Source: a virus
Length of the DNA stretch: 62,467 bases
IMG/VR virus record: IMGVR_UViG_3300005613_000065
Coordinates: 1-62,467 of that record
Strand: one strand, 5' to 3'
Shown here: positions 4,314 to 21,045 of the stretch, one piece after another
Layout of the letters: each line of letters opens with the position of its first letter
How positions within the stretch are numbered: the first letter of the stretch is position 1
The notes under the pieces: model-generated
What the model was told of the DNA's origin: nothing
The model's database searches: none
What the model saw: the letters and a program-made list of their open reading frames with translations, nothing else
Translations under genes and position numbers: made by a program

Positions 4314-4320
4314 ATAAATA
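4313..4320 (+). promoter_or_regulatory. Late promoter (GATAAATA), outer copy of cassette 2
   Basis: Starts inside the stop codon of the previous gene, exactly as at 478 for cassette 1. Confidence 0.5.
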
Positions 4321-4351
4321 ATAATGCCTGTAGGTCGCATTATAGGTAGAG

Positions 4352-4374
4352 AGGGAGCAGAAATGCTCCTTTTC
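4352..4374 (+). terminator. Intrinsic terminator
   Basis: GGAGCA/TGCTCC with a GAAA loop and TTTTCTT, identical to 517-540. Confidence 0.8.
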
Positions 4375-4377
4375 TTG

Positions 4378-4385
4378 TATAAATA
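4378..4385 (+). promoter_or_regulatory. Late promoter TATAAATA, inner copy, for endonuclease 2
   Basis: Perfect T4-type late -10, 26 bases before the ATG at 4411, inside the inverted-repeat loop. Confidence 0.75.
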
Positions 4386-4410
4386 ATATTGCGACCTATA
4401 GAGTAGAACT

Positions 4411-8347: not shown

Positions 8348-8366
8348 GTTAGTTACCTCTTAGGGT
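8348..8366 (+). repeat. Truncated copy of the 33-bp element
   Basis: Carries GTTAGTTACC and a dyad ACCT-CTTA-GGGT but no TGTAA/TANTGT half. It is cut where the stem module of the next gene begins, as if that gene's cassette had entered the element. Confidence 0.6.
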
Positions 8367-8379
8367 TGGGCGGTCATGC

Positions 8380-8438
8380 TGCGGGGGCGTAACTTGACGT
8401 AAGACCCATTTTATGGTATAAATATAATTACCCCCGCA
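8380..8438 (+). promoter_or_regulatory. Inverted repeat with embedded promoters, upstream of 8448
   Basis: TGCGGGGG (8380-8387) pairs with CCCCCGCA (8431-8438), and a CG bulge allows TAA/TTA to extend it. The loop contains TTGACG-17-TATAAA (8394-8422) and the late box TATAAATA (8417-8424) on the same -10. RNA from either would start near 8429 and carry only the 3' arm. There is no terminator inside, unlike the GIY-YIG modules. Confidence 0.65.
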
Positions 8439-8447
8439 AATAGAAGA

Positions 8448-8903
8448 ATGGACTGGAACTGTGAAGGTCTCAATCGTGCCTTTGAGTGTGATGGACCGTC
8501 AGTAATTACACTGACAGAAGAAGAACTTAAACCTGTGTATGATGCTCGTGTGTCATACGTCAGAGGATCTGTGTGGATTAACAACGGATCAGAACATCAT
8601 ATGGTATTTGAAGATGAAATACCTGATGGTTGGGTGCTAGGACGTATCAACGTTCAGACTGATAAAGAACAATTCAGACAACAGGGACTTAATAATAATA
8701 GTAACGCAAAGAAATATAGAATTAAGTTTAGAAACGGTGATGTGGTAGAATGTCACCAGTTATCTAAATGGGGACGTGAAAATGGTATCAAATACACAGC
8801 ACTGAAGAGTGTGGTACACAGAACCAAACATAAGAAGAATATACACTACTACAAAAAATCTTCTCCTACTTCACACATAGAAAGCATATATCTCATTAAT
8901 TAA
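8448..8903 (+). CDS. Orphan homing-endonuclease-type DNA-binding protein
   Basis: A 151-residue protein with no GIY-YIG or HNH motif. Residues ~40-66 (VWINNGSEHHMV...EIPDGWVLGR) match the WVNNG...PEGW-LGR module found beside homing endonuclease domains, and the C-terminal part (RNGDVVECHQLSKWGRENG) matches the helix-turn-helix module that also ends the endonuclease at 11747. It may be a degenerate endonuclease that lost its nuclease, or a stand-alone binding protein. The stem/late-promoter leader is like that of the true endonucleases. Confidence 0.6.
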   Translation: MDWNCEGLNRAFECDGPSVITLTEEELKPVYDARVSYVRGSVWINNGSEHHMVFEDEIPDGWVLGRINVQTDKEQFRQQGLNNNSNAKKYRIKFRNGDVVECHQLSKWGRENGIKYTALKSVVHRTKHKKNIHYYKKSSPTSHIESIYLIN

Positions 8904-8904
8904 A

Positions 8905-8937
8905 GTTAGTTACCTTGAAATGTCCCCTACAGTACGA
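8905..8937 (+). promoter_or_regulatory. 33-bp element, divergent copy
   Basis: GTTAGTTACC intact. The dyad is weakened to ACCT-TGAA-ATGT and the hexamer is CAGTAC. Spacing is unchanged. It lies 17 bases before the ATG at 8955. Confidence 0.6.
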
Positions 8938-8954
8938 GACACCCTTACGATATT

Positions 8955-9836
8955 ATGACCATGACTCACATCTCCCATCCTGAAGATCTTGTCCTGACTG
9001 GTGATCTGTCGGTTCTTGATCTTCTTTATGATACTGCACATATCTCCATGAAGATGGATGGTATGAGCCTTGTGTGGGGCACTAATCCTGCCAATGGTAA
9101 GTTCTTTGTGTGCACCAAAGCAGCATTTAATAAGAAAAAGATTCGTCTTTGTTATTCTGATGAAGATGTAAAGACTCATTTTGGTCATCAACCAGAAGTC
9201 GAAGAGATTATGAAGTCTTGTCTTCGTTATCTTCCTCGTACTGAGAACATTTATTGGGGAGATTGGCTTGGTTTTGGTGGAACTGACACGTTCAATCAAA
9301 ACACTTTGGTCTATTCTTTTCCTGAGATTATTTCTCAGAATCTTGTTATTGCACCTCATACTCAAGTGTATGTGCATGACCAAATGCATAATGCAGTTTG
9401 TGAACCGTTGATGGAAACTTTTGTTGACACTGATGATGTCAAGTGGGTCCAGCCTTCGGTGGATCGTGTTCATCAGTCCACAAATATTCCAAAAGTGAAC
9501 ACTGATGCAATTAAGTTTCTTTCTCATAAAGAAGCAGAAGTTGCTAAGGTTTCGATCAATAAACTCATTAAAGAAGGTCAAAAAGTTGATGATGCATCTT
9601 TGATTGAGATTCTGGGTTGTCCACAACTTGTAAATCTGTATCAATTTGTAACAGAAATCAAGCTTGATTTGATGGATAGTCTTATTATTACTGATTCTCC
9701 TTCTTGTTTTCTTCCGAATGGATGGGAAACAACTGGAGAAGGTTATGTCTTTCATTCTGAAAATTATGGAAGTGTGAAACTTGTTCGTCGTGAAGAGTTT
9801 GCATACGCCAACTTCAATTTCGGTTATTCGAGTTAG
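8955..9836 (+). CDS. Ligase-like covalent nucleotidyltransferase family protein
   Basis: A 293-residue protein. It shows KMDG at residues 33-36 (motif I, KxDG, the adenylylated Lys of DNA/RNA ligases and capping enzymes), GDWL near 101 (motif III region), EGYVF at 262-266 (motif IV) and VKLV at 274-277 (motif V). Motif order and spacing fit the nucleotidyltransferase core, with a longer III-IV gap than usual. The KxDG-x-VWGTNP-NGKFFV segment recalls phage proteins of unknown function. It may be a repair ligase or a dead relative. It precedes a DEAH helicase. The start at 8955 follows the 33-bp element, and a second ATG lies at 8961. Confidence 0.65.
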   Translation: MTMTHISHPEDLVLTGDLSVLDLLYDTAHISMKMDGMSLVWGTNPANGKFFVCTKAAFNKKKIRLCYSDEDVKTHFGHQPEVEEIMKSCLRYLPRTENIYWGDWLGFGGTDTFNQNTLVYSFPEIISQNLVIAPHTQVYVHDQMHNAVCEPLMETFVDTDDVKWVQPSVDRVHQSTNIPKVNTDAIKFLSHKEAEVAKVSINKLIKEGQKVDDASLIEILGCPQLVNLYQFVTEIKLDLMDSLIITDSPSCFLPNGWETTGEGYVFHSENYGSVKLVRREEFAYANFNFGYSS

Positions 9837-9864
9837 TTACCTGCAAAGGTCTTTATCACTGTAA
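9832..9864 (+). promoter_or_regulatory. 33-bp element, reference copy
   Basis: Begins GTTAGTTACC, has the dyad ACCT-GCAA-AGGT and ends TGTAA after exactly eight bases. The hexamer is CACTGT. It lies 11 bases before the ATG at 9876. The AGTTAG supplies the stop of the upstream gene. All full copies are 33 bp from first G to last A. I interpret the TANTGT hexamer as a -10 box and the dyad, at about -19 to -30, as an activator site replacing the -35 box. Confidence 0.7.
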
Positions 9865-9875
9865 TTACTTGATTC

Positions 9876-11054
9876 ATGATTACTCTTCGTCCTCATCAAC
9901 AACAAGCAGTCAAAGCTCTTCAGAATCATTCTATCGGTCAGTGCATCTTTCCGACTGGTGCTGGTAAGACTTTGGTTGCAATCATGGATGCTGTGTCTCG
10001 TTTTGAGTCTGACATTTCGCGGACCATTGTTGTTGTTTGTCCACGCATTCTTCTGGTCGAACAACTTTCTTCTGAGTATCTTGAGCACATCACTAATGCG
10101 CATGTGATGCATGTGCATAGTGGTGAGACCAGACATTTCAAGACCACTAAACCCGAACAAATTAAGCTTCATCATCAAGTTTGCAAAAATGCAAACGAGC
10201 ATGAGATTATCTTTACTACCTATCATTCTCTTCATCGTATTCAGGAAGCTGAGATTGATGTAGATACCATTTACTTTGATGAGGCGCATAATTCTTGTCA
10301 GAATCACTTCTATCCTGCGACTGAATATTTCAGTCAGAATGCCAATCGCAAATACTTTTTTACCGCAACTCGTAAGACCAGTGTGACACCGAAGAAACCA
10401 GGCATGAACTGGACTGAGACCTATGGTCAGGTGATTGCACGAGTGTCTGCACCTGATCTAGTTGAGAATGGATACATTCTTCCGCCTAAAGTCAAGGTGA
10501 TTGAGATGGATAAGGTGGACAAAAAGTCTCTGACTCCTCATCTTGAGAGCAATAATGTTCTTGCTTCGATTGATGAAATTGGAATCAAAAAGATTCTAGT
10601 TTGTGTCAAGACTTCGCGACAGTTGCAGAATCTGTTCATGACAGACTTTGCATATCAATTAACAGAACGTGGTTACTCTTATCTTTACATTACGGCTAAG
10701 ACTGGCGCAATTATTGATGGTCGCAAAGTGTCCCGTGAAGAGTTCTTCAACATTCTAAATGTATGGGGTAAAGACAAATCTAAAAAGTTTGTTGTACTGC
10801 ATCGGTCGATTCTCAGCGAAGGAATTAACTGTAGTGAACTTGAGGCTGTTGTGTTTCTTCGTAATATGGACGCAATTGAGCTTCTTCAAACTGTGGGTCG
10901 TGTGATTCGTGTCGGTTCAGAGAATAAAACCTATGGTTTGTTGTGTGTGCCAGTGTATTCTAATGTTGGAGTTTCGACTCAACGTTCTCTGCAGAAGTGT
11001 GTAGATATTGTGTTTGAGAAAGGTGAAATGCTTGATTCTGTTGTTCGGAGGTGA
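9876..11054 (+). CDS. DEAH-box superfamily 2 helicase (UvsW/Res-like)
   Basis: A 392-residue protein. The Q-like start LRPHQQQAV is followed by Walker A FPTGAGKT (25-32), motif Ia VVVCPRILLVEQ, DEAH near residue 135, the TAT motif III (FFTAT), HRSILSEGIN (motif V region) and QTVGRVIR near 338 (motif VI, arginine finger). This is a complete but minimal SF2 core without extra domains. Related phage enzymes such as T4 UvsW remodel branched DNA or R-loops. That role is inferred. First gene of a two-gene unit under the 33-bp element. Confidence 0.85.
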   Translation: MITLRPHQQQAVKALQNHSIGQCIFPTGAGKTLVAIMDAVSRFESDISRTIVVVCPRILLVEQLSSEYLEHITNAHVMHVHSGETRHFKTTKPEQIKLHHQVCKNANEHEIIFTTYHSLHRIQEAEIDVDTIYFDEAHNSCQNHFYPATEYFSQNANRKYFFTATRKTSVTPKKPGMNWTETYGQVIARVSAPDLVENGYILPPKVKVIEMDKVDKKSLTPHLESNNVLASIDEIGIKKILVCVKTSRQLQNLFMTDFAYQLTERGYSYLYITAKTGAIIDGRKVSREEFFNILNVWGKDKSKKFVVLHRSILSEGINCSELEAVVFLRNMDAIELLQTVGRVIRVGSENKTYGLLCVPVYSNVGVSTQRSLQKCVDIVFEKGEMLDSVVRR

Positions 11055-11057
11055 TTG

Positions 11058-11273
11058 ATGGGATTTGATTACACTAACTCTCACATTCTTAATTCACAAC
11101 CTGGCCCAATGGGATTTGTGATTGGAAATGGGGAATATGCTGCAATTCCAATGATGGGAAGTACCACTAAGCTCATGGTAATTCATAACGATCTTCAGCT
11201 TAAAGTATGTCGAAACCGCCAATCTGCCATGAGTTTTATAGATAAACATAGAAAATCAAATAAAAAAAGTTAG
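11058..11273 (+). CDS. Small protein of unknown function
   Basis: A 71-residue protein with an SD (GGAGGTG) placed correctly for the ATG at 11058. Gly/Met-rich N-terminal half, basic tail ending KSNKKS. The last Ser codon and stop (AGT TAG) come from the 33-bp element. Confidence 0.65.
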   Translation: MGFDYTNSHILNSQPGPMGFVIGNGEYAAIPMMGSTTKLMVIHNDLQLKVCRNRQSAMSFIDKHRKSNKKS

Positions 11274-11301
11274 TAACCTGCAAAGGTCCTCTGTAGTGTA
11301 A
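11269..11301 (+). promoter_or_regulatory. 33-bp element
   Basis: Variant GTTAGTAACC, dyad ACCT-GCAA-AGGT, hexamer TAGTGT, TGTAA end. It lies 11 bases before the ATG at 11313. Confidence 0.7.
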
Positions 11302-11312
11302 CTGTTGACTTG

Positions 11313-11483
11313 ATGATGACTTCCTTGCATATTGAACTTTACAATGATGGTGTTTGGCAATGCCCAAATACTGGGATGATGATTCCTCTGGGATCTGCAC
11401 CTTACAATGAAGAGGAAATTGCAGAGATGGAAAGGTTCAACATCGATGCACATCTTGATGACGCAATGGACTGGGACTTCTAG
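11313..11483 (+). CDS. Tiny acidic protein of unknown function
   Basis: A 56-residue ORF beginning with tandem ATGs and no SD, directly after the 33-bp element. Contains a W-C-P-NTGMMIPLG segment and an acidic C-terminus ending DDAMDWDF. Confidence 0.6.
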   Translation: MMTSLHIELYNDGVWQCPNTGMMIPLGSAPYNEEEIAEMERFNIDAHLDDAMDWDF

Positions 11484-11485
11484 AA

Positions 11486-11617
11486 ATGTCAAACACTCCA
11501 AACTGGCAACATCACAGCCAAAAACAAAAGAAAACGAAAGGAACTTGTAAGGGTATTCTAAGGGGGCGTAAGCAGTCTCTGAAGGCCCTGAAACTCAAGC
11601 TAAGTAGTAAGAGTTAG
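11486..11617 (+). CDS. Tiny basic protein of unknown function
   Basis: A 43-residue Lys/Gln-rich ORF starting 2 bases after the previous stop. Its last codons are formed by the next 33-bp element and the conserved sequence before it, so the C-terminus (KLSSKS) may be a by-product. Confidence 0.45.
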   Translation: MSNTPNWQHHSQKQKKTKGTCKGILRGRKQSLKALKLKLSSKS

Positions 11618-11645
11618 TTACCTGCAAAGGTCTTCATTACTGTAA
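11613..11645 (+). promoter_or_regulatory. 33-bp element, adjacent to endonuclease 3
   Basis: Dyad ACCT-GCAA-AGGT, hexamer TACTGT, TGTAA. Six bases after it comes GATAAATA and the stem module of the GIY-YIG gene. About 55 bp around it recur at 12848-12905. Confidence 0.7.
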
Positions 11646-11651
11646 CCAACT

Positions 11652-11659
11652 GATAAATA
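11652..11659 (+). promoter_or_regulatory. Late promoter (GATAAATA), outer copy of cassette 3
   Basis: Same position relative to the 5' arm as in cassettes 1 and 2, although the surrounding sequence is unrelated. Confidence 0.5.
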
Positions 11660-11691
11660 ATAATGCTTAATCGTGGTTGTTTAAGCAAATG

Positions 11692-11716
11692 AAGGGGTCT
11701 TAATGATCCCTTTTTT
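11692..11716 (+). terminator. Intrinsic terminator inside the inverted repeat
   Basis: An 8-bp stem (11692-11699 with 11705-11712, one G-T pair), 5-base loop, and a run of six Ts. Confidence 0.7.
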
Positions 11717-11724
11717 AATAAATA
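11717..11724 (+). promoter_or_regulatory. Late promoter AATAAATA, inner copy, for endonuclease 3
   Basis: Follows the T run of the terminator and lies 22 bases before the ATG at 11747. Confidence 0.6.
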
Positions 11725-11746
11725 ATAATAACCACGATTAAAGCAG

Positions 11747-12397
11747 ATGGAATACTACACTTACGCATATTTGCGCGAAGATGGATCACCCTACTACATT
11801 GGTAAGGGTAAAGGAAATAGAGCATATAATCAGCATAAAAGAAAAGGAATAGGTTTTTTGCCAGTTCCACCAAAAGATAGAATAATCAAACTCAAGCAGA
11901 ATCTCACCGAAAAAGAAGCATTTAGACATGAAATCTATATGATTGCTGTTTTTGGTAGAAAAGATTTGGGAACAGGTATTTTAATAAATCTTACTGATGG
12001 TGGAGAAGGATCATCTGGTGCTATTCCTTGGAATATAGGTAAGAAACACTCTCAAGAAATAGTTGAGAAGATAAGAAAAAAAGCAACAGGAAGAATACTG
12101 GATGAGAATACCAAACAAAAAATGAGTAAATCTCATAAAGGCATAAAACATACAGAAGAAACAAAGAAACTAATATCACAAAAACAACTAGGGGAAAATA
12201 ATCATAATTTTCAATATGTTTGGATATTTACCTTTGAAAGTGGTGAAGTTGTCAAAACATCAAGTATGCCAAGTTGGTGTAAAAATAATGGATATGATAA
12301 AGCAGCATTGATGAGAGTGTGTAAAGGTCAAGTTGGAAGACACAAAGACATTGTGACAGTTGAGAAAGTGTCACACAACCCCTTCCAACGGGCATAA
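11747..12397 (+). CDS. GIY-YIG homing endonuclease 3
   Basis: A 216-residue protein with a clear GIY-YIG core: YTYAYL (4-9), [11 protein letters not shown] (15-25, with the catalytic Arg at 25), the catalytic Glu at 62 (HEIYMI) and [13 protein letters not shown]. Then come NUMOD3-type repeats ([20 protein letters not shown]) and a C-terminal helix-turn-helix ([19 protein letters not shown]). Unlike the two paralogs at 576 and 4411 the nuclease site looks intact. Free-standing, not within a recognisable intron. Confidence 0.88.
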
Positions 12398-12410
12398 AAG
12401 ACCCTATAAT
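12383..12410 (+). promoter_or_regulatory. Weak sigma70-like promoter
   Basis: TATAAT (12405-12410) with a poor -35 (TTCCAA, 16-bp spacing), partly inside the end of the endonuclease gene. It would serve 12438, which lacks the 33-bp element. Confidence 0.4.
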
Positions 12411-12437
12411 ACAAAGGTAATCAACGAAACGCCTCAA

Positions 12438-12845
12438 ATGAGCACCAGAAGTCGCGTAGGTCTTGAACTTGCTGACGGAAGTATCCTCTCAATCTACTCA
12501 CATTATGATGGGTATCCTGAGTGGGCGGGTCGTATTCTTCGCACCCACTATAATACCCGTGAGAAAGTTGAGGCACTTGTGGATGGTGGAGATGTAAGTT
12601 GTCTTTGGACCGATGAAGGATTTTATACTTCTGAAGGTTCAACTCAACGGGATTGTTACGGACCTCTTCATTACAACGAAAGAGGTGAAAATTGCCCTCC
12701 TCGTCTTGATGCTAACTTGATTGAGTATGTTGGTGATGGTGAAGAATATGCCTATCTTTATACTTTGAAAGGTGAATGGGTATGCTATGAACTTCACGAA
12801 ACTCCTAAAATTGTTGAAATTCCCTCTGGAGCACTCATGGCATGA
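12438..12845 (+). CDS. Conserved-looking phage protein of unknown function
   Basis: A 135-residue protein starting at the ATG at 12438. Contains SRVGLELADGSILSIYSHYDGYPEWAG, an acidic middle and a W-CYELHE end, a pattern I have seen in phage proteins without a function. Lies between two long copies of the element-flanking repeat. Confidence 0.7.
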   Translation: MSTRSRVGLELADGSILSIYSHYDGYPEWAGRILRTHYNTREKVEALVDGGDVSCLWTDEGFYTSEGSTQRDCYGPLHYNERGENCPPRLDANLIEYVGDGEEYAYLYTLKGEWVCYELHETPKIVEIPSGALMA

Positions 12846-12866
12846 AACTTAAGCTAAGTAGTAAGA

Positions 12867-12899
12867 GTTAGTTACCTGCAAAGGTCTTCATTACTGTGA
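12867..12899 (+). promoter_or_regulatory. 33-bp element
   Basis: Dyad ACCT-GCAA-AGGT, hexamer TACTGT, end TGTGA. It lies 15 bases before the ATG at 12915. With ~25 bases upstream it is almost identical to the copy at 11613. Confidence 0.7.
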
Positions 12900-12914
12900 C
12901 CCACTAATTTAATT

Positions 12915-13475
12915 ATGAAAAATCGCTCACAAATTGGCATAAAACTTAAGTCTCTTCTCATTGCAGGTATTCTCGCAATACCTGCATTTTTTTCAAATCA
13001 AGTCAAGGCAGATGAACAACATCGTTATCTTGCAAGAACTATTCGATCTGTTGGAGTTTCTGTAACTATCAACACACGAGTTCATTGTTCTCCAGGAGAA
13101 TCTGGGAGTTATTATCCTGCAGGATTTATGGTCATCTGTCAGGACAATCGCAGGCAAGATGGAGTCGAAGTCGAATGGACTGCTAATGATCTTGATACTC
13201 TGCGCCATGAAGCACATCATATGATTCAGGATTGTGCTGCTGGTGGTATTGGTGATCGTAAAATGTCTCTGATGTTTAACACTCAAGAAGAGCTTGTTAG
13301 ATTTTTATCAAATTCTGGCTACACACAACAAGAACTACAACAAATTTCTAGTCATTATCAAAAACAAGGTGTGACTGGCTATGATTTGTTGATGGAATTG
13401 GAAGCATTTGCAGTTGCTAGATCCATTCCTGCTGATATTATTGCAAACAAAATTAAGGAGTATTGTATCGAATGA
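12915..13475 (+). CDS. Exported HExxH protein, putative zinc metallopeptidase
   Basis: A 186-residue protein with a signal peptide (basic MKNRSQIGIKLK, hydrophobic LLIAGILAIPAFF, cleavage likely after VKA at ~32) and HEAHH near residue 97, a HExxH zinc site in LRHEAHHMIQDC. A Glu in MELEAFAVA about 65 residues on could be the third ligand. Two to four cysteines could form disulfides outside the cytoplasm. It may act on the cell envelope or on other exported proteins. Substrate unknown. First of three coupled genes. Confidence 0.65.
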   Translation: MKNRSQIGIKLKSLLIAGILAIPAFFSNQVKADEQHRYLARTIRSVGVSVTINTRVHCSPGESGSYYPAGFMVICQDNRRQDGVEVEWTANDLDTLRHEAHHMIQDCAAGGIGDRKMSLMFNTQEELVRFLSNSGYTQQELQQISSHYQKQGVTGYDLLMELEAFAVARSIPADIIANKIKEYCIE

Positions 13476-13651
13476 ATCTTGACAAATTGACTCACGTTCA
13501 AAAAGAATTACTTGCAGAAGATTGTGAAGATTTTCTTTTGCATCGTAACATTCCTCTTCGTTCGCATTCGTATGATAATATCATCGAACAAGCATTGAAA
13601 GAGGGTTATCAACTCTCCAAGTTTGATCGTTTCGTAAATCTTCCAAAATGA
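13472..13651 (+). CDS. Small helical protein of unknown function
   Basis: A 59-residue protein coupled (ATGA) to the HExxH gene. It contains two helices and a FDRFVNLPK end. No domain recognised. Confidence 0.6.
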   Translation: MNLDKLTHVQKELLAEDCEDFLLHRNIPLRSHSYDNIIEQALKEGYQLSKFDRFVNLPK

Positions 13652-13797
13652 AAGTGCTTTTTGTAATTCTAAGTTTGACATTCATCTTTGGATGGAATGC
13701 TGTTCTTGTCCGAAGAGATGCAAAGATGTTTGATGCTTACAATCAAGAATGTGCAGAACTTCCACAATCACATCCTAATTGCCGATTCGCAAAATAA
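13648..13797 (+). CDS. Tiny signal-anchored or exported protein
   Basis: A 49-residue ORF with an N-terminal hydrophobic segment (VLFVILSLTFIFGWNAVLV) and a short tail with two cysteines. Coupled by ATGA overlap, so the HExxH protein and this membrane peptide are co-expressed. Confidence 0.6.
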   Translation: MKVLFVILSLTFIFGWNAVLVRRDAKMFDAYNQECAELPQSHPNCRFAK

Positions 13798-13802
13798 TTT
13801 AA

Positions 13803-13835
13803 GTTAGTAACCTTCAAAAGTCCACATTATTGTAA
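13803..13835 (+). promoter_or_regulatory. 33-bp element
   Basis: Variant dyad ACCT-TCAA-AAGT, hexamer TATTGT, TGTAA. It lies 14 bases before the ATG at 13850. Confidence 0.65.
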
Positions 13836-13849
13836 CTCACTAATTTATC

Positions 13850-14134
13850 ATGAAGTATTTTGAACAAGACAATTTCTTCTTGATTGAAGATATTGAAACC
13901 AATCTGAATCTCCAACGTGGTAATATTCCTTGGAGCAAAATTGCAGAATCTTCTAAGAATGGAAAGGCTTGGTTTTACAGTCTGAATCTCACTAAATCTA
14001 CCGATCCTAACTATCGACCTAAAACTCCAGCTACTTGGGTAAAAAAAGGATACGTATTTACATCTCGCAAAAGTCCAAACCTGAACACTGGTGAGCCAGG
14101 ATACTACATTTGGTGCACGAAATCACCAGAGTAA
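13850..14134 (+). CDS. Small basic protein of unknown function
   Basis: A 94-residue protein with Trp/Tyr-rich strands (GKAWFYSLNLT, TPATWVKKGYVFTSRKSPN, GYYIWC). It may be a small beta domain. No SD. Confidence 0.65.
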   Translation: MKYFEQDNFFLIEDIETNLNLQRGNIPWSKIAESSKNGKAWFYSLNLTKSTDPNYRPKTPATWVKKGYVFTSRKSPNLNTGEPGYYIWCTKSPE

Positions 14135-14174
14135 ATTATTACTCTATTTTGCTATTTTTATTTTATTCTAACCC

Positions 14175-14384
14175 ATGAACAATTCTTCTCAGATTCTCCG
14201 TGAAATGCAAAGTCTTCAAAAAACCTGGAGGCAGCAGAACTTTATGTTGACGAAAGAACAATCTGCAAGGTATCAAGAACTGTCTCTACTTCGCCAAGCA
14301 TTTATTTCATATTGGAAAGAGCAGGGTTTGGTATGGACTGGCCCATCTAATGTAGGTAAAGCCAAAACTGAATCTGCAGCTTGA
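14175..14384 (+). CDS. Small helical protein of unknown function
   Basis: A 69-residue protein, mainly one helix (residues ~5-50, REMQSLQKTWRQQNFMLTKEQ) with a short flexible tail. Confidence 0.6.
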   Translation: MNNSSQILREMQSLQKTWRQQNFMLTKEQSARYQELSLLRQAFISYWKEQGLVWTGPSNVGKAKTESAA

Positions 14385-14403
14385 TTTTTGTTGTTTATTG
14401 AAT

Positions 14404-14730
14404 ATGATGATGCAATTTGATTCAAATCGTTCCGAAGTCTTTGAAACGGAAGGTACAGTATTTGAGTACAATCATGAACGTACAGAATACATCGCAGATG
14501 ACATTCTAGAACAATATGAAGCTCAAATGCGTAAGATGGTTGATGAGTTTAACTCGTCAAGTCGAGCAAAGAAACTATCACTTGCAGATGACATCTTTTC
14601 TCTTCATTCAGAATGGAATGTAAAAGATAATGATGAAACATTGTATCTGGTCTTTAATCATGATGATGAATGTTTCACTGATGTCAGAACTGATAATAAA
14701 CATTATGCAAATCCTTTCAAAAAAAGTTAG
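14404..14730 (+). CDS. Acidic protein of unknown function
   Basis: A 108-residue protein beginning with three ATGs (14404-14412). Glu/Asp-rich, with a helix (DDILEQYEAQMRKMVDEF) and a strand (ETLYLVFNHDDECF). The stop (AGT TAG) lies in the next 33-bp element. Confidence 0.6.
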   Translation: MMMQFDSNRSEVFETEGTVFEYNHERTEYIADDILEQYEAQMRKMVDEFNSSSRAKKLSLADDIFSLHSEWNVKDNDETLYLVFNHDDECFTDVRTDNKHYANPFKKS

Positions 14731-14758
14731 TTACCTGCAAAGGTCATCTGTAGTGTGA
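14726..14758 (+). promoter_or_regulatory. 33-bp element
   Basis: Dyad ACCT-GCAA-AGGT, hexamer TAGTGT, end TGTGA. It lies 23 bases before the ATG at 14782, the longest gap of the set. Confidence 0.7.
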
Positions 14759-14781
14759 GAAACGCAATTCACTGAAACTTG

Positions 14782-14943
14782 ATGAAGTATGACATCCGCA
14801 TCGAATACAAAGACGGAACTGTTGAAAAGTTTCAACGCAAAAGTAACATCAAGCCAATCAACTGTGTCAAACTGAACGACAAAATTGCAGAGGAAATCTT
14901 TCCCCGCGATTGGAGAGAAATTAGCTCAATTCCTGTTTATTGA
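14782..14943 (+). CDS. Tiny basic protein of unknown function
   Basis: A 53-residue ORF, beta-hairpin-like start (KYDIRIEYKDGTVEKFQRK) then a helix (LNDKIAEEIFPRDWREI). Two bases separate it from the next start. Confidence 0.6.
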   Translation: MKYDIRIEYKDGTVEKFQRKSNIKPINCVKLNDKIAEEIFPRDWREISSIPVY

Positions 14944-14945
14944 TT

Positions 14946-15134
14946 ATGACTAACGGCTACACTCTCAACCGAGTTGAGTTCACTCAAGATGAAGAAACTT
15001 GCATTCTTAAGTTTCTTCGTGAAGCACAAGAATGTGGTTATCCTTCAGGCAATGAGCCTTGGTATCCAATTATTAACTCTATCATGCGAAAGTATTATGA
15101 TAGTGATGTCAAAGAAGCACAGGTGATTTGGTAA
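14946..15134 (+). CDS. Small protein of unknown function
   Basis: A 62-residue protein starting at the ATG at 14946. It overlaps the next start by 1 base (TAATG). Contains an EETCILKFLREAQECGYP helix. Confidence 0.6.
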   Translation: MTNGYTLNRVEFTQDEETCILKFLREAQECGYPSGNEPWYPIINSIMRKYYDSDVKEAQVIW

Positions 15135-15289
15135 TGATTTACAACATTGCTAGTGATCTTGACACTCGAAGAATTGTCTGGATTTGTTCATCTTATCAGA
15201 CTGTACATTCCTCTGTGGAAGTATCAGCAATCTGTCGCAAGATGAGTCGAATTAAAGTTAGTAACCTGCAAAGGTCATCTGTAGTATGA
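15134..15289 (+). CDS. Tiny protein reading through a 33-bp element
   Basis: A 51-residue ORF. Residues 1-40 look like a normal small protein, and the last 11 codons are translated from the 33-bp element, whose GTTAGTAACC variant lacks a stop in this frame. The ending (VSNLQRSSVV) is thus set by the regulatory element. Confidence 0.5.
   Translation: MIYNIASDLDTRRIVWICSSYQTVHSSVEVSAICRKMSRIKVSNLQRSSVV
15257..15289 (+). promoter_or_regulatory. 33-bp element, inside the end of an ORF
   Basis: GTTAGTAACC, dyad ACCT-GCAA-AGGT, hexamer TAGTAT, end TATGA. It lies 14 bases before the ATG at 15304. The hexamer variant creates a spurious ATG at 15286. Confidence 0.7.
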
Positions 15290-15303
15290 GAAACGCAAAT
15301 TGT

Positions 15304-15471
15304 ATGACTGAAACTTTCACTGTTCGTTTTATCTCTGAAGAGCTTGATTCTCCAGAGTATTTTGGGCCTTTTCATTCTGAAGATGATGCCTATGATTTTG
15401 CTGATGAATCTAACATTCGTTTGAGTCTTGCCGGGATTCCTTCTTGGGTTGCATCTTATTCTGTTGTATGA
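15304..15471 (+). CDS. Small acidic protein of unknown function
   Basis: A 55-residue protein beginning MTETFTVRFISEELDSPEYFGPF. The start at 15304 is preferred to 15286, because the bases between them match the untranslated leader of the copy at 14726 (TGAGAAACGCAA) and the earlier ATG falls in the putative -10. Confidence 0.6.
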   Translation: MTETFTVRFISEELDSPEYFGPFHSEDDAYDFADESNIRLSLAGIPSWVASYSVV

Positions 15472-15539
15472 ATCTGACATTATTTGCGGTGATTACTTTC
15501 ACCATTTGCTTTACATTTCTTTCATTCACTCTTCCTTAA
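15468..15539 (+). CDS. Possible 23-residue membrane microprotein
   Basis: ATGA-coupled to the previous gene. Almost entirely hydrophobic (LTLFAVITFTICFTFLSFTL). Too short to trust on its own, but its start position and composition fit a transmembrane peptide. Confidence 0.35.
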   Translation: MNLTLFAVITFTICFTFLSFTLP

Positions 15540-15544
15540 ATCTT

Positions 15545-15670
15545 ATGATTGAAACTTACAACTTCAGTGGTAATGTTGTCACCTTTTTAGGTTTGATTGG
15601 TGTAGTTTCTACTGGTATCATCGTGGCTACATCTTTTCGGCGTTATTTTAACTCTCCTCTACGGAAATGA
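15545..15670 (+). CDS. Tiny single-pass membrane protein
   Basis: A 41-residue protein starting at 15545. It has a hydrophobic segment (VVTFLGLIGVVSTGIIVATSF) followed by a basic RRYFNSPLRK tail, which predicts the C-terminus inside. ATGA overlap with the next gene. Confidence 0.6.
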   Translation: MIETYNFSGNVVTFLGLIGVVSTGIIVATSFRRYFNSPLRK

Positions 15671-15855
15671 AAATCACAAAGCAACAAGCATTGCTTCGGT
15701 TTCGTGATGACTTGAAAGTAGTATCTCGTTCCAATCCTGACATTCAAAACGATACGATTATGAAACGTGAAGCATGGAATGATTTTGTTGATTCTCTCAA
15801 CAAAGAAGGTTATGTAACTGATTCTCAAGCATTTAACTGGTCAAATCCTTTCTGA
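15667..15855 (+). CDS. Small protein of unknown function
   Basis: A 62-residue protein of the type found in cyanophages (KITKQQALLRFRDDLKVV, REAWNDFVDSLNKEG). Helical, mildly basic, coupled to the membrane protein before it. Confidence 0.65.
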   Translation: MKITKQQALLRFRDDLKVVSRSNPDIQNDTIMKREAWNDFVDSLNKEGYVTDSQAFNWSNPF

Positions 15856-15858
15856 ATT

Positions 15859-16056
15859 ATGAAACTCGAAACTCAACTTATTTGTCTTCAAGAACGTCTG
15901 CAAGATGCAGTGAATGTATGTAATGAATCTCCAAAATTGGAGGATCAAGGTTATCCTTATGCTACTGGTTACTCTCGATCTGCAATGCAAGGTGTAATTG
16001 AAGATTTGAATCGAATCATGCAACAACTCAGTGATTCTCAGGAGATTGACTTTTAA
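15859..16056 (+). CDS. Small helical protein of unknown function
   Basis: A 65-residue protein of two amphipathic helices (LICLQERLQDAVNVCNE and AMQGVIEDLNRIMQQLSD). Last gene of a unit begun at 15304. Confidence 0.6.
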   Translation: MKLETQLICLQERLQDAVNVCNESPKLEDQGYPYATGYSRSAMQGVIEDLNRIMQQLSDSQEIDF

Positions 16057-16065
16057 GGTATTCAA

Positions 16066-16098
16066 GTGAGTTACCTGCAAAGGTCATCTGTAGTGTAA
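16066..16098 (+). promoter_or_regulatory. 33-bp element
   Basis: Variant GTGAGTTACC, dyad ACCT-GCAA-AGGT, hexamer TAGTGT, TGTAA. It lies 21 bases before the ATG at 16120. The preceding GGTATTCAA is shared with the copy at 16761. Confidence 0.7.
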
Positions 16099-16119
16099 GA
16101 ATCAAGCAAATCAAGACAA

Positions 16120-16479
16120 ATGCAAATCGCACAAAGCAAAACTGAGTTTCTGACTGAATCATTGGTCGAGCAATTGAACGATCGTTGGTATGTTGAGAAT
16201 ATCGAATCTGAGAGTAATTATGATTACTTTGCGAAAGCATTTATCAAATCTGGTCGTAAGTATTTGAAGATTATGATTTGTGATGTAAATCGTAAGAATG
16301 CAGAATACAATGCTCGTTCGCATGGGCGAGTCTACATGTTTGTGGAGAAAGAGACTGGTTTTTGTTACAAACCCGCAAGTCTGAATGCACCTGCCAAAGG
16401 TGTGCGATTTGGGATTCATCAACTCGCCAATTATCCTGAGTTTTGTGATAAGTTTGGCAGTTTTCTTTATCTACGTTGA
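16120..16479 (+). CDS. Basic protein of unknown function
   Basis: A 119-residue protein with alternating strands and helices (NYDYFAKAFIKSGRKYLKIMIC, RVYMFVEKETGFCYKPA, GVRFGIHQLANYPEF). A small enzyme-like or binding fold is possible. None recognised. Confidence 0.7.
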   Translation: MQIAQSKTEFLTESLVEQLNDRWYVENIESESNYDYFAKAFIKSGRKYLKIMICDVNRKNAEYNARSHGRVYMFVEKETGFCYKPASLNAPAKGVRFGIHQLANYPEFCDKFGSFLYLR

Positions 16480-16502
16480 TATTTCTTTTTCGCTATTGTT
16501 AT

Positions 16503-16530
16503 TACACATTTCTTGGTATGTGTATTGTTA
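16503..16530 (+). terminator. Possible terminator hairpin
   Basis: TACACAT (16503-16509) pairs with ATGTGTA (16518-16524) around an 8-base loop, followed by TTGTTATT. Weak T tract, so low confidence. Confidence 0.35.
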
Positions 16531-16555
16531 TTCTAATTGAGTATTTAAAATCACA

Positions 16556-16750
16556 ATGATGTTATCTGAAGAAACAATTTGCAAAATTGCTGATGCATTA
16601 GTAAATGATGTCAGTGATTATGTTTATTCCAGTGAAGAGTATGCATCTGTCATGCGTAAATTAATTGAAGAAGCATTAGATGCAAAAATGGGAGAAATGG
16701 ATGACCAATTGCATTTTGAGTTAGGTTTAATTTTATTTGAGAAACTTTAA
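16556..16750 (+). CDS. Small acidic helical protein
   Basis: A 64-residue protein (start 16556 or 16559), helical and acidic (EETICKIADALVNDVSDYVYS). Unknown function. It shares the unit of 16120 but is separated by 76 non-coding bases with a hairpin. Confidence 0.6.
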   Translation: MMLSEETICKIADALVNDVSDYVYSSEEYASVMRKLIEEALDAKMGEMDDQLHFELGLILFEKL

Positions 16751-16760
16751 CGGTATTCAA

Positions 16761-16793
16761 GTGAGTTACCTGCAAAGGTCTGTAGTAGTGTAA
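16761..16793 (+). promoter_or_regulatory. 33-bp element
   Basis: Variant GTGAGTTACC, dyad ACCT-GCAA-AGGT, hexamer TAGTGT, TGTAA. It lies 19 bases before the ATG at 16813. Confidence 0.7.
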
Positions 16794-16812
16794 GAATCAA
16801 ACTTTTTCATTG

Positions 16813-16974
16813 ATGCTTTATTCAATTTTGACTTGCAAACGTGATGATCCCGAACAGAATTGGGAAGTGATCATGGGCGCACCATGTGATATGGATCGTG
16901 CGTTAATCAAACTTCAGTATTATCGTAAGAACTGGGGTGTGCAACAAAAGTATCGTGTTGCGCGTGCAAAGTAA
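16813..16974 (+). CDS. Tiny basic protein of unknown function
   Basis: A 53-residue ORF (LYSILTCKRDDPEQNWEVIMGAP then a helix and a basic QQKYRVARAK tail). No SD. Confidence 0.6.
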   Translation: MLYSILTCKRDDPEQNWEVIMGAPCDMDRALIKLQYYRKNWGVQQKYRVARAK

Positions 16975-16990
16975 TTCAATTTTATTCATT

Positions 16991-17170
16991 ATGACACATT
17001 CCAATCCTTATGTTGAACAACTCATTGAGATGGGTTATGATCGTGCAGATTGTGAGACTGTAGCTTCTGCAGGAATGAAGAAAACCTTTCCGCTTACAAT
17101 TCATGGAAGAGTGTATGAAACTCAAGAGCAATATGATGAAGCTCTTGCTGATTTTATCAATGGACTTTAA
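16991..17170 (+). CDS. Small protein of unknown function
   Basis: A 59-residue protein starting at 16991. The N-terminal YVEQLIEMGYDRADCETVA resembles a short helical bundle. Confidence 0.6.
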   Translation: MTHSNPYVEQLIEMGYDRADCETVASAGMKKTFPLTIHGRVYETQEQYDEALADFINGL

Positions 17171-17172
17171 TA

Positions 17173-17346
17173 ATGAATGAAACTGAAATAATTCAACAAT
17201 ATGCTCATTTGATGATTGAAGGCATGAGCAAAGAGGATATGTATGAAATTGTTTTTGAGACCATATCGCAACAATTAAGTAAGTATGATAAAGATCAGCT
17301 TATGGAAGAAATTGAACATTTTTATCCAGAACTTTTGAGCAATTAA
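17173..17346 (+). CDS. Small acidic helical protein, paralog of 18012-18188
   Basis: A 57-residue ORF whose pattern (H-MIEGM---DMYEIVFETI--QLSKY then I--FYPELL) matches 18012-18188 throughout. Function unknown. Confidence 0.65.
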   Translation: MNETEIIQQYAHLMIEGMSKEDMYEIVFETISQQLSKYDKDQLMEEIEHFYPELLSN

Positions 17347-17347
17347 A

Positions 17348-17380
17348 GTAAGTTACCTGCAAAGGTCAGTAGTATTGTAA
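17348..17380 (+). promoter_or_regulatory. 33-bp element
   Basis: Variant GTAAGTTACC, dyad ACCT-GCAA-AGGT, hexamer TATTGT, TGTAA. It lies 16 bases before the ATG at 17397. The leader TTTCGCTT recurs after the copy at 17730. Confidence 0.7.
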
Positions 17381-17396
17381 GTTTCGCTTTTGTTTT

Positions 17397-17729
17397 ATGT
17401 TCTGCATTGAGATGACTTTCGCTGTCATGAATCCTGACTTTCAGGGTGCTTATCTTGCGATTTGTGATGATGATATTCGTACTGCTAAATTGTTTGATAC
17501 CAAGCATGAGATGTATGGTTGGATTCGTGATCAAATTGAGAATCAAGGTGTAAGTCAAGTGACTACAACTGTTCTTGGCAAAAATGGTGAAGTTGATGAT
17601 CGACTTGTTTGTGATTCTGTTCGGTATTTTGCTGATGAGAATTGTTACAAAGGCGGTATGTATGAGCCAATCTTTGGTGATAATATTCGCCAAGTTCCTT
17701 CTTACAAAGATAAGTTCTCCTGGATTTAA
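17397..17729 (+). CDS. Protein of unknown function
   Basis: A 110-residue protein, a lone gene between two copies of the 33-bp element. Acidic, with a helical FDTKHEMYGWIRDQIE stretch and a Gly/Tyr-rich C-terminus. In-frame ATGs at 17412 and 17427 are alternative starts. Confidence 0.65.
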   Translation: MFCIEMTFAVMNPDFQGAYLAICDDDIRTAKLFDTKHEMYGWIRDQIENQGVSQVTTTVLGKNGEVDDRLVCDSVRYFADENCYKGGMYEPIFGDNIRQVPSYKDKFSWI

Positions 17730-17762
17730 GTTAGTTACCTGCAAAGGTCTGTAGTATTGTAA
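17730..17762 (+). promoter_or_regulatory. 33-bp element
   Basis: GTTAGTTACC, dyad ACCT-GCAA-AGGT, hexamer TATTGT, TGTAA. It lies 19 bases before the ATG at 17782. Confidence 0.7.
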
Positions 17763-17781
17763 GTTTCGCTTCTTAATTCTG

Positions 17782-17985
17782 ATGCCTACTGTGGATCGCC
17801 TTGAAATGCTCACGGCAAGGGAACAACTAATGGAGGACATTGATGCTATTATTGAAGGTTTTTACTTTGACAATCCAGTTCAAAACTGCTGCGGTGATGA
17901 CCGTCTCCAACTAACTGCCACTGATAGTGATGAGCTCATCCGCACACTATGTGATGCCGTCTGCAAAAACTTCCCCACTAATTGA
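17782..17985 (+). CDS. Small acidic protein of unknown function
   Basis: A 67-residue protein with four cysteines (NCC, LC, VC) and two helices. First gene of a five-gene unit to 18857. Confidence 0.6.
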   Translation: MPTVDRLEMLTAREQLMEDIDAIIEGFYFDNPVQNCCGDDRLQLTATDSDELIRTLCDAVCKNFPTN

Positions 17986-18011
17986 TACAAACTCATTCTT
18001 CCTTAATTAAC

Positions 18012-18188
18012 ATGAACCGCACTGAACTACAAGAGTCCTACATTCAACAATTGATTGAAGGTATGGATTACAAAACGATGGAACGACTTGTTTATGATTC
18101 ACTGAATGATAATTTAAGTGCTTACGGTGAGGCAGAACTTATCACTGAGATTGAAGAGTATTATCCCGAACTGTTGGAGGAAAATTGA
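18012..18188 (+). CDS. Small acidic helical protein, paralog of 17173-17346
   Basis: A 58-residue protein starting at 18012. Shares QLIEGM, ERLVYDSLNDNLS and IEEYYPELL with the paralog. Overlaps the next start by 1 base. Confidence 0.65.
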   Translation: MNRTELQESYIQQLIEGMDYKTMERLVYDSLNDNLSAYGEAELITEIEEYYPELLEEN

Positions 18189-18343
18189 TGCCTTACACTG
18201 TTGAGATTACTGAAACTTATTACACCACAGTTTCTTTTGAAACTGAAGAAGAAGCAAAGGAGTTTATGAAGGAACCCAATTATGATCTGGTTGATAGTTG
18301 GGAACTTGATGATGCCAAACTGAAACTTTTGGAGGGAAACTGA
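18188..18343 (+). CDS. Tiny acidic protein of unknown function
   Basis: A 51-residue ORF preceded by an SD (GGAGGAAA). Beta-hairpin-like start (YTVEITETYYTTVSFETEEE), as in small phage domains that cover a single strand pair. Overlaps the next ATG. Confidence 0.6.
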   Translation: MPYTVEITETYYTTVSFETEEEAKEFMKEPNYDLVDSWELDDAKLKLLEGN

Positions 18344-18591
18344 TGCCAACTGTTCAAGTTTACGGTGTCAAGTTTGACACTACAGATGATGGATTTGGTG
18401 ATCTTTCCAGGGAGGAAACTTTGAAACTGGAGAGAGACATTGAAGGTCGCATCTTTGAGATAGATTGTCACCCTGATGCTGATATTGCTGAGTTTGAGTA
18501 TGAGATTTGTGATGCCATTACTGAAGAAACTGGTTGGTGCGTGAATACTTTTAGCTATCGTCATGTTGTCATTGGAGCAAACGATAACTGA
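18343..18591 (+). CDS. Small acidic protein of unknown function
   Basis: An 82-residue protein with an SD (GGAGGGAAA). Sequence VQVYGVKFDTTDDGFGDL then IFEIDCHPDADIAEFEYEICDAI suggests an alpha/beta fold. ATG overlap with the next gene. Confidence 0.65.
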   Translation: MPTVQVYGVKFDTTDDGFGDLSREETLKLERDIEGRIFEIDCHPDADIAEFEYEICDAITEETGWCVNTFSYRHVVIGANDN

Positions 18592-18857
18592 TGTATTCTA
18601 ATCTCTCAAAGATTAAGCCAGCCTTCAGGACTGAGGGACAAATCACAGGGAATTGGGGTAGACCAAAGACTCGCACTCATGGTAATACTGATCTCGGATT
18701 GACTTCTAAAGATCATATCACAATCACAAAACAAAGTGATTACATTCAAAGAATGTATCAGGTTCTTGATCATACTCAAGATCCAAAGATTCGACGATTT
18801 GCTTTTAATGAAATTAAAAAGTATTTGATACAAACAAATCAATGGAAAAACACTTAA
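18591..18857 (+). CDS. Small basic protein of unknown function
   Basis: An 88-residue protein. N-terminal Gly/Arg-rich stretch (GQITGNWGRPKTRTHGN) and a helical C-terminus (DPKIRRFAFNEIKKYLIQ). Last gene before a 338-base non-coding stretch. Confidence 0.65.
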   Translation: MYSNLSKIKPAFRTEGQITGNWGRPKTRTHGNTDLGLTSKDHITITKQSDYIQRMYQVLDHTQDPKIRRFAFNEIKKYLIQTNQWKNT

Positions 18858-19022
18858 AAGCATGGTTTTTATCTTAAAAAGCATTTAAAAAAGGCTTATT
18901 AAATGTTATTAAGCGTTTTGTAATGATTATTACTGCTTTTTAATATTGATAAGAATTCGTATCAAATAGTGATATGAATACTGATTATGATGATAGAAAC
19001 CTTCTGCTTATGTGTCTAGAAA

Positions 19023-19083
19023 CCTTCTAAATGCCTCATGTTCTTGTGATTAATGCCTTCTAAATGCCTCATGTTCTTGTGAT
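19023..19083 (+). repeat. Two 28-bp direct repeats
   Basis: 19023-19050 and 19056-19083 are identical (CCTTCTAAATGCC...TTGTGAT), period 33 bp. Confidence 0.85.
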
Positions 19084-19086
19084 CTT

Positions 19087-19110
19087 AGGCCGTATCATAT
19101 CAGGCCTTTT
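19087..19110 (+). terminator. Intrinsic terminator
   Basis: AGGCC (19087-19091) pairs with GGCCT (19103-19107) around an 11-base loop, followed by TTT. Ends the unit 17782-18857. Confidence 0.5.
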
Positions 19111-19148
19111 CAGTATTGTCAAGGGCCCCCAGATTTTTCAGAATTATT

Positions 19149-19181
19149 GTTAGTAACCTGCAAAGGTCATTTACAGTGTCA
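19149..19181 (+). promoter_or_regulatory. 33-bp element
   Basis: GTTAGTAACC, dyad ACCT-GCAA-AGGT, hexamer CAGTGT, end TGTCA. It lies 14 bases before the ATG at 19196. Confidence 0.65.
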
Positions 19182-19195
19182 CCCATTGAATCCTG

Positions 19196-19321
19196 ATGAC
19201 CTCGACACAGCAACTATTGCAATCGATTGATACATTAAAAGCAGAAGGTCATCAATCAATTAAGCTTATGCAATTGCCATCACAAGCCAAACGTAAGCGC
19301 AAGTCTGTATGGTCTCGATAA
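19196..19321 (+). CDS. Tiny basic protein of unknown function
   Basis: A 41-residue ORF: helical N-terminus (STQQLLQSIDTLKAEGHQ) and strongly basic tail (AKRKRKSVWSR), suggesting nucleic-acid contact. Confidence 0.55.
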   Translation: MTSTQQLLQSIDTLKAEGHQSIKLMQLPSQAKRKRKSVWSR

Positions 19322-19414
19322 GACTCTACAGCAGGGTTTCATTATCTTTTAGGTATCATTTGTCCTTAGTATGACATTAAACTGCTTCAATGTCCTCTTT
19401 ATTCTTCTTGAATT

Positions 19415-19564
19415 ATGTCTCGCGAATTGATGATTGGTCTGCTTCGTAAGGGTCGGAATGGCAATCAGATTCTGAATATTCTGGATGCTATTGTGGTTAC
19501 TGATGATTTGGAATCGATTGAGATTCCTGCTTCTGAGCCTACTTTGGAAGAGCTTGAATTCTGA
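19415..19564 (+). CDS. Tiny conserved-looking cyanophage protein
   Basis: A 49-residue ORF starting MSRELMIGLLRKGRNGNQIL. This N-terminal pattern is familiar from short unknown proteins of cyanomyoviruses (from memory). Helical with an acidic end. Confidence 0.65.
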   Translation: MSRELMIGLLRKGRNGNQILNILDAIVVTDDLESIEIPASEPTLEELEF

Positions 19565-19575
19565 TTGTTTCTAAA

Positions 19576-19675
19576 TAAATGAGTATTTGTTGAGATCTTG
19601 TAGAGCAGCACTTGAACTCTCCCATTGGGAAACAGAGGTAACAATCTGACAAAGAAGCAAGCAAATACTCATTTA
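19576..19675 (+). ncRNA. Candidate structured RNA: long terminal stem with folded interior
   Basis: A 14-bp perfect terminal stem (TAAATGAGTATTTG at 19576-19589 with its reverse complement at 19662-19675), extended by two more pairs. The ~70-base interior also pairs (CTCT/AGAG with CCC/GGG, AGAT/ATCT). TAGAGCAGCACTTGAAC inside resembles a tRNA D-arm, but no T-arm or anticodon arm can be drawn, so it is not a functional tRNA. Confidence 0.4.
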
Positions 19676-19768
19676 ATTGATTATACTCAGAGGGAGTTTA
19701 TCTTGTCTCCGGCGTAATAAAACAGAACATAAAATCAGAGTAAAAGATGATGAGAATTAAATAAAAAG

Positions 19769-19810
19769 CAGGACGATTCCTGATTAGAACTTTATGTCAA
19801 ATTCTAATCA
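19769..19810 (+). other. Two adjacent hairpins in non-coding DNA
   Basis: CAGGA-CGAT-TCCTG (19769-19782) overlaps by two bases a 9-bp stem TGATTAGAA/TTCTAATCA (19781-19810). The two could be alternative folds. The stretch 19565-19840 has no credible gene. Confidence 0.45.
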
Positions 19811-19840
19811 CTTAGGAGTCATATTTTGTTGCGTATTAAA

Positions 19841-19873
19841 GTTAGTTACCTCGAAAGGTCCCCTGTAGTGTAA
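19841..19873 (+). promoter_or_regulatory. 33-bp element, last full copy
   Basis: GTTAGTTACC, dyad ACCT-CGAA-AGGT (both halves kept, loop changed), hexamer TAGTGT, TGTAA. It lies 15 bases before the ATG at 19889. Confidence 0.7.
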
Positions 19874-20844: not shown

Positions 20845-21045
20845 ATGAAAAAAAATTCCGTAGAAAAAATTTACCACATATATCTGAAGGATGAATGTGT
20901 TTTACATAATTTAAATGAGGAAATGTTTAAGAGTCATTGGGAGATTTTAAATAATCTAGTAGGATTAATGAAAACTGATTATACATCAGAAGATTTATCT
21001 TATGAGATGTTAGAGAAAAGGTTTGAAGAATTAAAGGAGGATTAA
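20845..21045 (+). CDS. Small acidic protein near late genes
   Basis: A 66-residue protein. EKIYHIYLKDECVLHNLNEE...LVGLMKTDYTSEDLSYE is a pattern I associate with a short cyanophage gene just before the tail cluster. Unknown function. Confidence 0.65.
   Translation: MKKNSVEKIYHIYLKDECVLHNLNEEMFKSHWEILNNLVGLMKTDYTSEDLSYEMLEKRFEELKED

Follow-up and report, generated by a model that had tools for sequence, protein, structure and literature searches.

Genes of the cyanophage Syn9 reportedly fall into three expression classes, with a novel element used for the early genes and host-like promoters for the middle genes. In phage T4, middle promoters involve a MotA box at -30, AsiA and the host sigma70. 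Cyanomyoviruses have neither motA nor asiA (PMC2984593, PMC5780444), and T4-like cyanophages lack homologues of Alt, ModA, MotA and AsiA (PMC2984593), which raises the question of how they direct the host polymerase during the first minutes. Here we analysed IMG/VR record IMGVR_UViG_3300005613_000065, a 62,467-nucleotide fragment of a T4-like cyanophage genome (Kyanoviridae) that is called the window below, over its whole length. A first-pass annotation had noticed fourteen copies of a 33-bp element in it and proposed them as a new class of phage middle promoter.

A phage-specific promoter, in which a fixed box fills the -35 and spacer positions beside a -10, is well supported by the comparative data. 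The explanation that we consider probable as a whole is that the copies would be promoters of an early gene cluster, with sigma70 at the -10 and a lineage-specific reader replacing the -35 contact.

Among the closest described systems is the early element that Doron et al. 2016 reportedly found in Syn9 and P-SSM2. These phages are also Kyanoviridae; their ORFan region ahead of gp25/gp6 is the same, and the genes that stand there behind a repeated promoter that is not host-like are in part shared (helicase, DUF7717, Gp96). The repeated promoters of both phages were derived here: in Syn9 it is RGTGKCMAC, about 30-40 nt and then TGTATTCTATAAGAGTCAAAGG, and in P-SSM2 it is AACTGGCACA, about 30 nt and then CTATAATA, often with a stem-loop that makes it resemble the promoter-early stem-loop (PeSL) cassettes of T4-type phages. 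We infer that these are the reported early element. They differ from the window element in sequence and also in layout, with the box a long way upstream of the -10 rather than directly adjoining it. The window element pattern is absent from Syn9 and P-SSM2, the comparison being with the motifs derived here and not with the published logo; a proposed occurrence in Syn9 was rejected, with 0 matches above 8 bits. The word RRSTGKCMAC was also tried as an element common to all cyanophages and was dropped, being at control level in most genomes.

Fourteen copies upstream of gp25/gp6

The array lies directly upstream of the gp25/gp6 region, among small genes mostly of unknown function and a helicase gene. 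The gp25/gp6 region has matches in T4-like cyanophages only (Synechococcus, Prochlorococcus and uncultured ones), the best of them, at 76%, in S-B43, S-B05, RN05-S and RB11-B. All fourteen copies were found where the first-pass annotation had placed them, on the + strand, and they align without gaps over 33 bp. In a scan with a 33-column weight matrix built on them, the copies reach 35.6-55.1 bits and the rest of the window, both strands included, stays at or below 5 bits, so that there is no fifteenth copy; the best score in 20 shuffled windows was 3.6 bits. The copies do sit close before start codons, with an ATG-started frame 11-23 nt past the last base in 13 of 14 (the exception is copy 11613), and those at 9832, 11269 and 14726 overlap the final codons of the preceding gene. 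In the list, the dyad is ACCT-N4-AGGT.

8348..8358, + strand: truncated copy, of which just the left 11 bases (GTTAGTTACCT) remain, missed by the 33-column matrix
8905..8937, + strand: copy 1, before the DUF6267 gene (ATG 8955); dyad broken (ATGT)
9832..9864, + strand: copy 2, before the helicase gene (ATG 9876)
11269..11301, + strand: copy 3 (ATG 11313)
11613..11645, + strand: copy 4, before a homing-endonuclease insertion; its 66-nt context is 94% identical to that of copy 5
12867..12899, + strand: copy 5 (ATG 12915)
13803..13835, + strand: copy 6 (ATG 13850); dyad broken (AAGT)
14726..14758, + strand: copy 7 (ATG 14782)
15257..15289, + strand: copy 8 (ATG 15304)
16066..16098, + strand: copy 9, before the DUF7717 / T4-GC 68 gene (ATG 16120)
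16761..16793, + strand: copy 10 (ATG 16813)
17348..17380, + strand: copy 11 (ATG 17397)
17730..17762, + strand: copy 12 (ATG 17782)
19149..19181, + strand: copy 13 (ATG 19196)
19841..19873, + strand: copy 14, before the Kyano_Gp96 gene (ATG 19889), an orthologue of Syn9 gp90

An element family across cyanophages

A search of other cyanophages, which the first-pass annotation had suggested, found the promoter-shaped element in hundreds of relatives, always on a single strand, beside an ATG and within one cluster of small genes ahead of gp25/gp6. Exact patterns retrieved 57 and 109 IMG/VR stretches, and iterated profile scanning over 1.05 Mb then yielded 704 instances (411 without redundancy), against 0 in reversed sequence. 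After further loci were added, the family stood at 740 instances from about 150 loci; 516 are distinct, and the reversed controls again had 0. Orientation is uniform in all 106 of the 106 loci that have at least three copies. An open ATG follows the predicted start in 456 of the 516 distinct members at a median of 12 nt (quartiles 9-14); for random places the figures are 305 of 516 and a median of 38 nt. The genomes of 84,980 bacterial and archaeal species lacked the element at the stringency tested, as did other phages isolated on the same host MW02, such as S-H9-1, which does have the orthologous helicase.

Counted from the first G of the 33-bp copy, the family consensus reads WTAWA (-4 to 0), RTTAST (1-6), N, ACCTCCAAA (8-16), N, GTC (18-20), CNC (21-23), TATAGT (24-29), RTAA (30-33) and sCAC (34-37). 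The conserved unit therefore exceeds 33 bp: on the upstream side it includes WTAWA, with an A at -2 in 95%, and on the downstream side, to a small extent, sCAC. Among the 516 members T26 is kept in 96%, A27 in 93%, T29 in 98% and T31 in 86%, as expected of a host sigma70 -10. The right part of the window copies is mostly TANTRT at 26-31, which is common to most lineages. Either register, 24-29 or 26-31, could possibly be the -10 hexamer, and C35-A36 is a plausible -1/+1 that fits the register 24-29. The -10-like hexamer is what the element has in common with host-type sigma70 promoters and with T4 late promoters (TATAAATA). The annotated lack of TTGACA at -35 holds, and no site from a sigma70-consensus scan (TTGACA-like, 16-18 nt) coincides with a copy where its -10 would be expected.

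The same family bears on the dyad, which the first-pass annotation had described as kept. It is broken in copies 8905 and 13803 and complete in only 16% of the distinct members. Were the element to act after transcription, as an RNA hairpin ACCU-NNNN-AGGU in processing, regulator binding or translation control, the ACCTGCAAAGGT of many window copies could give a 4-bp hairpin with a GNRA-type loop, as in copy 11613. But folding is no better than in shuffles, 34% of the distinct members have pair 10-17 and 16% have the complete four-pair stem, and no compensation is seen, C10 being constant. The -10-like part and the upstream A/T signal are conserved as well, and there was no Rfam match. The hairpin was rejected on folding and pair counts, and we give an RNA element very little credence.

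Cultured phages carrying the element

Three complete relatives each carry one cluster of elements, on the coding strand, among small ORFans upstream of gp25/gp6. RB11-B has 12 copies of ATTACTCACCTCCAAANGTC..., all within 159.6-171.3 kb of its 210-kb genome, and an extra match with one mismatch at 185.5 kb that is unlike the other copies. SynMITS9220M01 has about 12 copies of RTTACTCACCTCTAAAGTGTCCCTATAGT at 36-50 kb of 190 kb, and the Prochlorococcus phage P-TIM68 has 13 copies of GTTAGTTACCTCTAAATTGA at 47-56 kb of 197 kb, those at 48281 and 49208 preceding the DUF6267 and helicase genes. In S-SM2, where the copies likewise form one cluster on the coding strand, the proximal part is kept (CCTAAAGYGTCCC TATAGTRTGAGCAC) and the distal part is AAAGGGGGGTCG.

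RB11-B replaced S-B43 (MN018232.1) as main reference because the latter record holds two gp25/gp6 sets and two promoter types. Its gp25/gp6-type baseplate genes occur at 47.7-50.2 kb and again at 129.0-131.2 kb, and an element of the window family occurs along with AGTGTCCACC-type promoters at 141-143 kb. The record is possibly a chimeric assembly. In SynMITS9220M01 (locus L170, 16641 and 17574) and S-SM2 (locus L195, 15467 and 16390) the annotated start is an ATG within the promoter -10 (TATAGTATG or AATAGTATG); these start codons have probably been annotated too far upstream.

Lineage-specific spelling of the upstream part

Copies were permuted among loci, position by position. At positions 0-7 and 17-20, agreement within a genome is far above permutation and the bases differ between lineages. 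Position 5 agrees within genomes in 98% against 51% when permuted (z 36, excess 0.97) and position 7 in 80% against 36% (excess 0.68), while the excess at positions 19 and 20 is 0.82 and 0.88. G5 occurs together with A7 or T7, and C5 with C7. SynMITS-type copies have GTC one base nearer the -10, which contributes to the effect at 17-20. Positions 26-29 (the -10) and 32-36 (the start region) have no within-genome excess (|z| below 2.5), and the flanks are unrelated, at 26.5% identity within and between loci alike.

Because 0-7 and 17-20 vary in concert and the -10 does not, the part from about -36 to -16 seems to be read by a lineage-specific, trans-acting factor. The idea of such a reader, already present in the first-pass annotation, is thus well supported. 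The simplest reading of these sequence patterns is that a protein differing between lineages would read about -36 to -16 while the host sigma70 reads the -10. A phage-encoded protein is favoured because the element is absent from bacterial and archaeal genomes and from same-host phages, and its core is common to phages of two host genera.

The same observations bear on whether the host sigma70 holoenzyme could suffice alone, with the conserved -35/spacer part making an unusual direct contact to the polymerase. The distance between positions 1-6 and 24-29 matches a 17-bp spacer, and weak -35 boxes are common in marine cyanobacterial promoters. We nevertheless regard this as improbable, since from one phage lineage to another the part from -36 to -16 changes in concert and the -10 does not, the core is shared by Synechococcus and Prochlorococcus (P-TIM68) phages while same-host phages do without the element, and it does not occur in host genomes.

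Proposed mechanism

The proposed mechanism builds on what was observed: the number of copies, their orientation, spacing and position next to open reading frames, the conservation of the element in different lineages, and a reader part that varies in concert where the -10 does not. The fourteen copies would be promoters in a cluster of host-takeover (early) genes, each serving one transcription unit. The RNA polymerase of the host, carrying its main sigma factor, would contact the -10-like part, either TANTRT (26-31) or the overlapping TATAGT (24-29), and transcription would start about 7 nt downstream of it, which leaves 9-21 nt to the start codon. In place of the sigma70 -35 box there would be the stretch from about -36 to -16 (WTAWA-RTTASTNACCT-NN-AAA-NGTC), which a lineage-specific protein, most likely phage-encoded, would read to recruit the polymerase early in infection.

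Several points weigh against this explanation. Which register forms the -10 is ambiguous, and in some window copies the hexamer is a poor sigma70 match in either one (copy 9832 has CACTGT or ATCACT). We infer transcription start at the elements, early timing and a phage protein as reader from sequence comparison. Gene conversion among copies, the main alternative, or the spread of one promoter within a lineage could partly explain the agreement within genomes, although the -10 should then also have been homogenised.

Repetition itself may suggest a site for recombination, replication or packaging, a shuffling site or iteron with only a secondary promoter role. One copy is duplicated around the homing-endonuclease insertion (11613/12867), and gene content between copies varies among relatives. 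The T4-type PeSL cassettes, which join an early promoter to a stem-loop, are described as mediating shuffling (cited in PMC4503421); set beside that description, the array is alike in that early-promoter-like repeats separate the small genes of a shuffling region and in that a promoter is duplicated along with an inserted gene. However, the strict gene orientation, the fixed distance to the ATG and the conserved -10-like part speak against this use, and no stem-loop is attached: the region has 10 terminator-like sites against 6.3 expected, none of them both intergenic and attached to a copy. We judge a recombination repeat highly improbable.

Two stretches of the array hold endonuclease genes. 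Within 8348-8903 the truncated element is followed by TATAAATA (8417) and an HNH-endonuclease-like gene (8448-8903). Within 11589-12908 a GIY-YIG/NUMOD3 homing endonuclease gene (ATG 11747; PHROG homing endonuclease) and a 161-aa gene lie between near-identical copies of the promoter region. TATAAATA occurs in the window at 543, 4378, 8417 and 52681. Elsewhere, the window contains a 300-nt duplication whose two copies, 478-777 and 4313-4612, are 88% identical (open reading frames 576-1175 and 4411-5100).

Early or middle expression

The proposed middle class is probably wrong, and on balance early or delayed-early is the best reading. In RB11-B, SynMITS9220M01 and P-TIM68 the elements keep to the one ORFan cluster upstream of gp25, and none lies near replication genes. 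Early expression is the likelier because the genes behind the elements are host-takeover ORFans, and because their Syn9 and P-SSM2 orthologues bear other lineage-specific repeated promoters. The window element precedes orthologues of Syn9 gp90, gp69 and helicase, and of P-SSM2 T4-GC 68 and 71. Orthologous genes (DUF6267, helicase, DUF7717 and Gp96) keep a promoter but change its spelling: the Gp96 gene is found behind the window, SynMITS, S-SM2 and Syn9 types, and the DUF7717 gene behind the window, SynMITS, S-SM2 and P-SSM2 types. A window-to-G001 comparison of orthologous promoters via their downstream flanks paired few copies reliably. The same ORFan cluster has its own promoter type in each phage, AAAGGGGGGTCG-CCTAAAGYGTCCC-TATAGT in S-SM2 and others in P-SSM2 (locus L196) and Syn9 (loci L075-L076).

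A middle (delayed-early) promoter would have the same anatomy, with its reader made from earlier transcripts like T4 MotA. The likeness to MotA promoters holds for the architecture, an activator-type box in place of the -35, a retained sigma70-like -10 and several copies per genome, and three expression classes are described in T4-like cyanophages (PMC5082946). It does not extend to sequence: MotA-box words are at chance level, TTTGCTTTA having 37 matches (at most one mismatch) against 35.9 expected, none of them part of an element. Nor are the genes behind the window element the replication set; in cultured cyanomyoviruses the genes of nucleic-acid metabolism and replication form the middle class (PMC7238727). 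MotA_activ and AsiA had no match in the window record or in five complete relatives, although the control genomes that should have been positive likewise gave none. The scheme reported for Syn9, with host-like promoters as middle and the novel element as early, also speaks against a middle promoter, which we hold to be unlikely.

A candidate reader

One gene just upstream of the array may encode the reader:

7518..8153, + strand: basic 211-aa protein starting MKTLSQFLAEA, a weak candidate for a virion-delivered reader from its co-distribution with the element, with a predicted function

Among 50,697 phage records the protein is found in seven cultured or single-cell phages, SynMITS9220M01, S-SM2, P-TIM68, AG-345-O18, S-B05, RN05-S and RB11-B, nearly the same phages as carry the element. 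The presence of the protein in P-TIM68 was the reason for examining that phage, in which the element then turned up. The start MKTLSQFLAEA resembles the capsid-targeting start of T4 internal proteins, and its LAE-A site fits cleavage by the head protease. The protein looks disordered and could merely follow ancestry, so that it is a lead only. A phylogenetic profile for the reader gave few candidates, and two others were set aside: a 91-aa protein, because it is present in 350 records, and a 66-aa protein (20845-21045) that is also in Bellamy and S-SCSM1, both of which have no element match. A bolder form of the proposal, in which the arrays would be immediate-early promoters served by a virion-delivered, new class of lineage-specific activator that fills the -35 and spacer, with site and reader co-evolving rapidly throughout the family, is doubtful.

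Significance

A literature search found no paper that describes the window element. For T4-like cyanophages, an early promoter element specific to the phage has reportedly been published in principle; the window element is structurally different and has its own carriers, and we have seen no description of the concerted-evolution footprint. The element exposes several start codons in public records that were placed inside a promoter, and it offers a marker for the early-gene cluster in uncultured cyanophages. With a defined promoter class of 36-42 bp, a map of the bases that do and do not follow lineage and a predicted start, the question of how these phages steer the host polymerase would become directly testable in the cultured phages RB11-B, S-B05, SynMITS9220M01 and P-TIM68.

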